A DNA stretch of 40,222 bases from Candidatus Uhrbacteria bacterium RIFCSPLOWO2_01_FULL_47_25 (lineage in GTDB: Bacteria; Patescibacteriota; Patescibacteriia; GWA2-46-9): NCBI GenBank assembly GCA_001791325.1, contig MGEK01000024.1, forward strand, positions 1-40,222, in the 5' to 3' direction. Numbering within the stretch: position 1 is the stretch's first letter; each line of letters begins with the position of its first letter. The position numbers and the translations under genes are program-made. Below the pieces are notes generated by a model. The model had not been told where the DNA came from. It did no database searches and saw only the letters and a list, made by a program, of their open reading frames with translations. This document shows, in pieces, positions 6,304 to 8,609 of the stretch.

Positions 6304-6366
6304 AAACTTATGGAATTATCTCTACCCTGAACCGTCCAGGCAACATACACATGACCCCGCACAAGG

Positions 6367-6388
6367 CGGGCGCGACCGGATTTGAACC
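6367..6388 (-). pseudogene. tRNA-Asp 3'-end fragment (T-arm and acceptor)
   Basis: 22 bases identical to the 3' end of the intact tRNA-Asp (6459-6480). The match ends where hairpin H0 begins, in the T-arm. It looks like the 3' piece of the same broken copy whose 5' pieces lie at 6641-6772. Confidence 0.7.
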
Positions 6389-6420
6389 CCATAGTATCCG
6401 CCTACGGCGGAACTACGGAG
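6387..6420. repeat. Hairpin H0
   Basis: Imperfect palindrome starting CCCCATAGTATCCGCC and returning through GGCGGAACTACGGAG. It belongs with H1-H3, which share the base CCCCGTA...TACGGGG but have different tips. Confidence 0.6.
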
Positions 6421-6458
6421 CACAGCCGGCGACGACTAATCTACTCTGCCTCACTCTG

Positions 6459-6533
6459 CGGGCGCGACCGGATTTGAACCGGCGATCTTCTCCGTGACAG
6501 GGAGACGTGTTAACCGGGCTACACCACGCGCCC
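6459..6533 (-). tRNA. tRNA-Asp(GTC)
   Basis: 75 nt with acceptor stem GGGCGCG/CGCGCCC, anticodon stem TCTCC/GGAGA, loop CTGTCAC with anticodon GTC at 6498-6496, and T-loop TTCAAAT. The D-arm GTGTAGCCCGGTTAACAC is intact and the discriminator is G, as expected for tRNA-Asp. The 3' CCA is not encoded. It sits between pieces of a broken second copy. Confidence 0.95.
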
Positions 6534-6603
6534 GCGGAAAGAGACAGAAAACTAATATATCAAATTGTAACAAAACTAATACATAACATAAAAGCGATCC
6601 TTG

Positions 6604-6640
6604 CCCCGTACTATTTGCCTGCGGCAAATCAGTGCGCGGG
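6604..6640. repeat. Hairpin H1
   Basis: Imperfect palindrome CCCCGTACTATTTGCC ... GGCAAATCAGTGCGCGGG with a TGC tip. It lies immediately after the anticodon-arm piece of the broken tRNA-Asp, reading the minus strand. Confidence 0.6.
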
Positions 6641-6667
6641 TTCTCCATGACAGGGAGACGTGCCGTG

Positions 6668-6703
6668 CCCCGTATCATCCCGTGTAGCGGGATTGATATG
6701 GGG
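6668..6703. repeat. Hairpin H2 inside the broken tRNA-Asp
   Basis: CCCCGTATCATCCCG ... CGGGATTGATATGGGG with a TGTAG tip. It separates the D-arm from the anticodon arm. Confidence 0.65.
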
Positions 6704-6716
6704 TTAGACCGGGCTA

Positions 6717-6756
6717 CCCACGCACCAGTCCCGCCTGATGTCGGGACGGTACGGGG
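6717..6756. repeat. Hairpin H3 inside the broken tRNA-Asp
   Basis: CCCACGCACCAGTCCCG ... CGGGACGGTACGGGG with a seven-base tip. It separates the acceptor 5' strand from the D-arm. With H0-H2 it forms a small family with conserved outer bases and tips that vary while staying paired. Confidence 0.65.
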
Positions 6757-6800
6757 CCAGCACCACGCGCCCGAACTGTGCGGGGTCAAACGAGCTACGA

Positions 6801-7151
6801 TCACTGACTTAACACCTTTTTCATCAAGGCCTTGAATATAACCGAATGTTCAGCCGCTAGCTCGGCCAAAATCTTTCTATCCAGCTCAATATTCTTCCTT
6901 TTCAATATATTAATGAAACGAGAATAAGACAAACCGTAGGGTCTGACGGCCGCGCCAATACGTATCTGCCACAAGCGCCGGAATTCCCCCTTTTTCTTTT
7001 GCCTATCACGATAAGCATAAACACCGGCTTTGACCACGGCCACCTTGGCTAGCTTGATCCGATTCTTGCGGCCCCACATGTAGCCCTTGGCCCGCTTCAA
7101 AATGTTCTTGCGCCTTTTGGCATGCATCATGCCGCGTTTAACTCTGGGCAT
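6801..7151 (-). CDS. rplT: Large-subunit ribosomal protein L20
   Basis: 116 residues, the usual length, with the L20 opening MPRVKRGMMHAKRRKNILK and the basic helix core (KGYMWGRKNRIKLAK). L20 binds 23S rRNA early in 50S assembly. It is last in the infC-rpmI-rplT order that is conserved in bacteria and in many species controlled by L20 itself. The start codon lies one base from the end of element E1, so its 5' untranslated sequence is the E1 terminal repeat (AACGGGG, then T, then ATG). Confidence 0.97.
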   Translation of the reverse strand: MPRVKRGMMHAKRRKNILKRAKGYMWGRKNRIKLAKVAVVKAGVYAYRDRQKKKGEFRRLWQIRIGAAVRPYGLSYSRFINILKRKNIELDRKILAELAAEHSVIFKALMKKVLSQ

Positions 7152-8330: not shown

Positions 8331-8609
8331 TTAATAATTATGTTTTGTTTTTGTTTGAAGAAAATGAATGAGCATACTTTTTAGAACCGCCTTACCCTTC
8401 GTTGTCTTAAAGTATCGCTCGCGCTTCATGGCATCAGCTTTGTTCAAAAACGCTTCATAAAAAACAAGTTCTAGTGGCCGGCGATACTTTGTTGATGCAT
8501 TTTTACCGCTATTGTGATCATCTATACGCCGCCGCAAATTCTCTGAGAATCCCGCGTAAAATCGTTCATCTCTAAGACTGCGAAGAATGTATACATAATA
8601 GAATTTCAT
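8331..8609 (-). CDS. GIY-YIG nuclease-domain protein (UPF0213/YhbQ-like)
   Basis: 92 residues with the signature tyrosines in YYVYILRSLRD, then RFYAGFSENLRRRIDDHNSG, and a glutamate region MKRERYFK. These fit a single-domain GIY-YIG protein, with the motif slightly changed to FYAG. Such proteins are common in this group as DNA-repair or orphan nucleases, and the substrate is unknown. It stands alone between infC and ssrA. It is read in the same direction as its neighbours, but no shared promoter is evident. Confidence 0.9.
   Translation of the reverse strand: MKFYYVYILRSLRDERFYAGFSENLRRRIDDHNSGKNASTKYRRPLELVFYEAFLNKADAMKRERYFKTTKGKAVLKSMLIHFLQTKTKHNY

Follow-up and report, generated by a model that had tools for sequence, protein, structure and literature searches.

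How does an intact tRNA gene come to lie inside the ordered pieces of a broken copy of the same tRNA? The question is raised by the tRNA-Asp locus of the window, a stretch of 40,222 nt that makes up one whole contig (C24) of the genome of Candidatus Uhrbacteria bacterium RIFCSPLOWO2_01_FULL_47_25 (hereafter G000; 1.197 Mb, a draft in 40 contigs). We compared G000 with G001, a sister species of the same genus and likewise a draft, and with the outgroups G002 (same family as G000), G016 and G018, the last two covered by their 30 best-scoring tRNAs each. The data are DNA sequence alone, with the genus represented by the draft assemblies of the two species G000 and G001. Among the named genomes compared by ribosomal protein L20, identity was 83% in Candidatus Uhrbacteria RIFCSPLOWO2_02_FULL_48_12. 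As control DNA we sampled 292 kb of G000, roughly 24% of the genome, on different contigs and stretches.

The locus spans positions 6351-6790 on the minus strand, between rplT and a LeuA-like gene. Read 5' to 3' on that strand, it starts with GGGCGCGTGGTG, hairpin H3, TAGCCCGGTCTAAC, hairpin H2, CACGTCTCCCTGTCATGGAGAA, hairpin H1 and AAGGATCGC, continues with a spacer, an arm, the intact tRNA and a second arm, and ends with GTCGCCGGC, hairpin H0 and TTCAAATCCGGTCGCGCCCGC. Its features are listed here in the same order, after the upstream neighbour (R1 is a covariance model of the hairpins, described below).

6801-7151, minus: rplT (ribosomal protein L20), upstream neighbour and anchor for the orthologous locus
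6773-6790, minus: outer 5' arm TTTGACCCCGCACAGTTC, which pairs with 6351-6365
6761-6772, minus: positions 1-12 of the outer (broken) tRNA-Asp, i.e. the 5' acceptor strand and the start of the D-stem
6717-6756, minus: hairpin H3 (z -3.8), overlain by an R1 match at 6718-6758 on the plus strand
6703-6716, minus: D-arm piece of the outer tRNA-Asp
6668-6703, minus: hairpin H2 (z -4.8; R1 match with E 6.5e-7, H2 being among the sequences that built R1)
6641-6662, minus: anticodon-arm piece of the outer tRNA-Asp, 21/22 identical to the intact gene
6604-6640, minus: hairpin H1 (z -2.8; R1 match with E 6e-7, H1 being among the sequences that built R1)
6594-6602, minus: variable-region piece of the outer tRNA-Asp
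6536-6549, minus: inner 5' arm of the new cassette (TTCTGTCTCTTTCC)
6458-6533, minus: intact tRNA-Asp(GTC), nested in the broken copy (Rfam, 66.1 bits)
6444-6457, minus: inner 3' arm of the new cassette (AGAGTGAGGCAGAG)
6425-6433, minus: 5' T-stem piece of the outer tRNA-Asp
6387-6420, minus: hairpin H0, folding to -21.8 kcal/mol, at the outer copy's T-loop boundary
6366-6386, minus: outer tRNA-Asp from the T-loop to the 3' acceptor strand, identical to the intact gene
6351-6365, minus: outer 3' arm CTTGTGCGGGGTCAT

An earlier note on this DNA had read the region as a tRNA-Asp copy in ordered pieces, cut by four hairpins around an intact tRNA-Asp, and both the reading of the locus and its folding bear this out in substance. 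As judged by ARAGORN and Rfam, a scan that the note had proposed, the gene at 6458-6533 is the sole intact tRNA-Asp at the locus. The inverted repeat enclosing the whole, put at 12 bp in the note, is real and measures 23 nt at 87% complementarity with the outer acceptor stem included. The pieces named there were all found, although a further one, AAGGATCGC, had been overlooked, and the base CCCCGTA/TACGGGG that the note ascribed to all four hairpins is not literally present in each: the consensus is rather about CCCCGCACCA-stem-loop-stem-GGTRCGGGGCA. H3, H2 and H1 are more stable than their shuffles in two-base blocks (z values as listed), and the whole 441-nt strand folds far better than shuffles made in the same way (z -11.9). 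The intact gene is the sole gene in the roughly 160 nt between the outer halves, which hold neither an integrase gene nor a long element, and across the whole window Rfam matched only tRNA and tmRNA, with no group I intron core. The Asp locus is a nested (matryoshka) gene: a former arm-bounded tRNA-Asp has been split and now stands around a new intact tRNA-Asp with arms of its own, and the dead outer copy is in addition interrupted by small palindromes.

The hairpins share a common build of 9 bp, a one-base bulge and then an inner stem of 6-7 bp. The outer stem is conserved with its bulge (about CCCCGCACC / GGTRCGGGG), and the inner stem is variable yet still paired. Hairpins built in this way are also found at other tRNA loci and in G001. 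R1, built from seven hairpins including H1 and H2, matched 28 times in G000 and 37 times in G001 at E of 1 or less (strand duplicates counted), as well as one marginal match in G002; at E of 0.01 or less there were 16, 15 and 0, respectively, and other genomes of the class mostly had none, with a maximum of 6. Several matches adjoin tRNAs and the majority lie away from them, so that related copies occur in number at unrelated loci. Small hairpins of the family away from tRNAs showed no preference for the loops of other stems (p 0.22). Upstream of tRNA-Lys(TTT) (L003, around 1350-1465) we also observed palindromes with CCCCG ends nested in each other, in which no tRNA relic was recognised.

Nor is the layout peculiar to tRNA-Asp: it is found at about half of the tRNA genes in both genomes of the genus, and this genome-wide nesting of cognate tRNA genes, beyond the one locus of the earlier note, is the main finding. 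Blast of every G000 tRNA against its own flanks returned broken copies at many genes. When 5' and 3' tRNA halves were compared with 300-bp flanks (100 shuffles each, z of at least 4), broken pieces in the predicted positions (5' upstream, 3' downstream) flanked 26 of 46 tRNAs in G000 (12 on both sides) and 18 of 39 in G001 (5 on both sides), as against 4/46 in G002, 3/30 in G016 and 0/30 in G018. The pieces are strongly polar, with 16 5' pieces upstream and 22 3' pieces downstream in G000 (2 upstream-3' and 3 downstream-5' in the opposite sense), and 12 and 11, respectively, in G001 (1 and 0 in the opposite sense). With all tRNAs as references, the best match of fragments scoring at least 36 was to the amino acid of the flanked tRNA in 39 of 46 cases, some of the assignments here and of the joins below being made by eye. 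Of the seven exceptions, one hardly distinguishes Phe from Thr, and the remaining six are 5' pieces lying downstream of a tRNA but assigned by inspection to the one that follows; the polarity is therefore almost complete. The 292-kb control DNA of G000 held no tRNA relic better than E 0.046, and a chance origin of the pattern is rejected by the shuffles, the outgroups and the control DNA. As a separate observation, the same-family outgroup G002 has one likely nested case at tRNA-Ser(TGA) (C3:24640-24726), where an outer tRNA-Ser is broken within its anticodon loop.

The 5' and 3' halves of the outer copies are complementary. When hairpins and insert were omitted and the halves joined by hand, six outer copies yielded whole tRNAs, each carrying the anticodon of the tRNA that it encloses: Asp-gtc, Thr-cgt (two layers), Glu-ctc (in G001), Leu-caa and Pro-cgg, the Asp and Pro joins having needed choices at the breakpoints. 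Three more joins, two for Gln and one for Ser, failed to be recognised properly as tRNAs. The Thr(CGT) locus has three nested layers with three different acceptor stems, each matching within its own layer (with single mismatches in the relics), and the complete outer tRNA-Glu(CTC) of G001 is cut between C34 and T35. Breakpoints concentrate in the anticodon loop: 19 of 60 fall at positions 33-36 (7% expected, p=2e-8; some breakpoints were refined by eye). Many others lie at the end of the D-arm or near the T-loop, the T-loop excess not being significant (9/60, p 0.33).

The flanks carry a signal of their own. Pairing between the two flanks of a tRNA exceeds that of mispaired flanks in G000 (p 8e-5) and G001 (p 0.014), an excess absent in G002 and G016, and the effect is greater at tRNAs with relics (p 0.017 in G000, 7e-4 in G001). 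The arm motif CCCCGCACC has a density of 79 per 100 kb in the flanks of tRNAs, a figure somewhat inflated because the flanks of clustered tRNAs overlap, versus 4.5 in the 292-kb control. Together with CCCCGTTAGAG and CCTGCCCGCCAT it is one of the arm families that recur at different tRNAs, and the arm CCCCCACACTAAT is common to an outer tRNA-Gln layer and an insert in the RNase P RNA.

Comparison of the two species provides states before and after the event. At the Asp locus, the gene at work in G001, taken together with its arms, matches the outer, broken copy of G000 at 103 of 112 positions; its arms agree with the outer arms of G000 at 15/19 (5') and 14/16 (3'), and with the inner ones at 7/28 and 5/23. 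Since the working gene of G001 corresponds to the outer copy and not to the inner arms, it appears that the gene still in use in G001 has been broken in G000, which now seems to use the inner tRNA-Asp. G001 has relics of its own around tRNA-Asp. At Thr(CGT), the middle layer of G000 is an unbroken gene in G001, flanked by the arms CCTGCCCGCCATGTCCCGA and GGCGATGGCAGGCGGG; in G000 this layer, bearing the arms of G001, is split at TATC/G (C34/G35), inside the CGT anticodon, and what splits it is a different, arm-bounded tRNA-Thr(CGT). For the tRNA-bearing inserts at both loci we thus have the empty and the filled site, and, as far as genome comparison can tell, the two pairs support real insertion. 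Furthermore, of the tRNAs orthologous between G000 and G001, ten are 100% identical and twelve fall below 80%, a division into near-identical and very different orthologues that would be expected if some tRNAs had been replaced.

The explanation that we favour, with a probability of about 0.58, is that tRNA cassettes bounded by inverted repeats were inserted in the loops of the resident cognate tRNA and replaced it in place. From the observations above we infer the cassette insertion itself and a selection for cognates. A palindrome-bounded cassette with a tRNA would enter a loop of the resident gene, most often the anticodon loop but also the D-arm and T-arm boundaries, by an insertion acting on stem-loops, be it through a structure-directed nuclease or recombinase or through template switching. 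Nearly every anticodon in G000 is served by a single gene, and because of this the only insertions to survive would be those bringing a working cognate tRNA. The outcome would be serial in-place replacement of tRNA genes, after which the dead outer halves would gather more palindromes and decay. Repeated palindrome insertion and a tRNA-targeted element, two of the possibilities raised in the earlier note, gain support from the dispersal of the hairpins in G000 and its sister species, the enrichment of arms beside tRNAs and the recurrence of the layout at many other tRNA genes. A stronger version, in which mobile palindrome-bounded tRNA cassettes form an active replacement system that recognises tRNA-gene loops, inserts (often inside the anticodon), kills the resident and takes over its function in serial swaps at fixed chromosomal places, is put forward tentatively, the odds leaning somewhat against it.

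No mobilising enzyme for the putative cassettes was identified, and a Y1 transposase (PF01797) is absent from all three genomes searched (0/3; positive controls match in 5/14). Small GIY-YIG ORFs adjoin several tRNAs in both species (L007, L014, L015, L002; L164, L175, L120, L050), another lies near the tmRNA in the window (8331-8609), and the 292-kb control DNA holds one; as a lead only, the ORFs beside tRNAs may be a candidate for the nuclease. A viral source of the cassettes was considered and set aside: three exact viral matches, on inspection, had no such hairpin or tRNA cassette, and phage matches to the window are confined to tRNA-Asp.

The main rival dispenses with cassette insertion. 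Replication forks would stall in the tRNA or its arms, and slippage at the hairpins would produce partial tandem duplications of the upstream arm with the 5' part, or of the 3' part with the downstream arm, the copy kept whole being the functional one. Slippage accounts for the polarity and for relics being found only beside cognate tRNAs. It explains Thr(TGT), where successive layers repeat the same arms CCCGCACCTTTCTTGA / TTTGGAAAGGTGCGGGA, equally well, and is also in keeping with Lys(CTT), where the upstream piece is identical to the intact gene at 29/29 positions. For these two loci it is a serious rival. It does not, however, explain Thr(CGT), where the layers have different acceptor stems, each fitting its own other half, and where G001 has an uninterrupted layer with the same arms; nor does it explain Asp, where the inner arms bear no relation to the outer ones and the working gene of G001 is orthologous to the outer copy of G000. 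As an account of the whole pattern we consider it unlikely. The inner and outer copies of Gln(CTG) share an identical stretch of 44 nt but have different acceptors, which suggests local copying or recombination, and not a foreign cassette, in at least some events.

It is improbable that REP-like palindromes simply landed by chance in decaying tRNA pseudogenes near functional tRNAs, making the nesting incidental. While the dispersal of the hairpin family, most of it away from tRNAs, is what such a history would leave, chance decay would not be expected to produce the polarity, the cognate identity and the complementary halves, the arm motifs are enriched beside tRNAs and the Y1 transposase is missing.

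A still poorer prospect is that the outer halves make up one tRNA whose very long intron, spliced out, contains the inner tRNA, a relative of the multi-intron tRNA entertained in the earlier note. Some joined halves are indeed complete tRNAs with intact anticodons, and the arms make a helix at the junction. The outer copies are nevertheless redundant, an intact cognate gene always being present; the Asp copy would need four more hairpins removed, several outer copies lack tRNA parts (those of Thr(TGT) are without part of the anticodon stem), and at one and the same locus the outer copies have decayed differently in the sister species, whereas the intact gene is conserved. The sole interrupted tRNA found without an intact copy, tRNA-Asn, has a group I intron instead. 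Finally, an artefact of metagenome assembly is scarcely credible: G000 is a draft in many contigs, but the independent draft of another species nests likewise, partly at the same loci, and the outgroup drafts do not.

Two other RNA genes of these genomes are also interrupted. tRNA-Asn(GTT), missed by tRNA scans, contains a group I intron of about 600 nt (RF00028) in G000 (L256, C6:35835-36532) and G001 (L257, C4:10667-11275), and as a candidate for a split tRNA it is rejected on that ground. Its insert seems to contain a small HNH-type reading frame (read by eye); the intron of G000 has a long palindrome, that of G001 is without one. The RNase P RNA measures 354 nt in G002 and has long palindromic inserts in G000 and G001 (L031; L323, L324), where the enlarged RNA falls short of the family cut-off score.

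Few genes are as conserved, or as hard to replace, as those for tRNAs. Finding about half of those of a lineage inside older cognate remains points to a route by which essential RNA genes may be replaced in place, with a fossil record of the earlier layers. Replacement could explain why some tRNAs are identical between the two species and others only 66-79% alike, and the loci open to test the idea that insertion into bacterial DNA can be guided by the structure of stem-loops rather than by sequence. They are also a warning that tRNA annotation in Patescibacteria may conceal interrupted copies.

The Rickettsia palindromic elements are palindromic mobile elements found in RNA genes. In sponge mitochondria, repetitive hairpin-forming elements have been reported inside rns and rnl (PMC2800124), and a mobile DNA family of yeast mitochondria is a further palindromic mobile element for comparison (PMC4478555). 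The likeness to these lies in short dispersed hairpins, which here sit within the RNase P RNA as well as within dead tRNA copies; a palindrome-bounded cassette with an intact tRNA inside a cognate tRNA gene was not found described in the open-licence literature, preprints and subscription papers lying outside the search. REP palindromes, which come with Y1 REP-associated transposases (PMC3733652), are similar as dispersed palindromes of 20-40 bp with a bulge. They differ in that the present family has a clear tie to tRNA genes and, in an informal look at the consensus and the copies read, no GTAG or CGTC end tag; REP/RAYT is unlikely because the transposase is missing from the three genomes. 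The split, permuted and intron-bearing tRNAs of Archaea and algae (PMC3218864) share with our loci tRNA pieces that lie apart in the genome. Here, however, the pieces are redundant relics in a bacterium, apparently with no sign of joining. Group I introns in bacterial tRNA genes interrupt the anticodon loop, as does the one in tRNA-Asn of G000. The nested inserts share this position but differ in carrying a tRNA, and no intron was matched in the window or at the scanned Thr loci, where Rfam gave only tRNAs above its cut-off. Integrative elements that use tRNA sites also target the tRNA gene and restore its function with incoming sequence. In this they resemble the cassettes proposed here; the difference is that the Asp insert is without an integrase and that a whole tRNA is enclosed by both halves of the old one.
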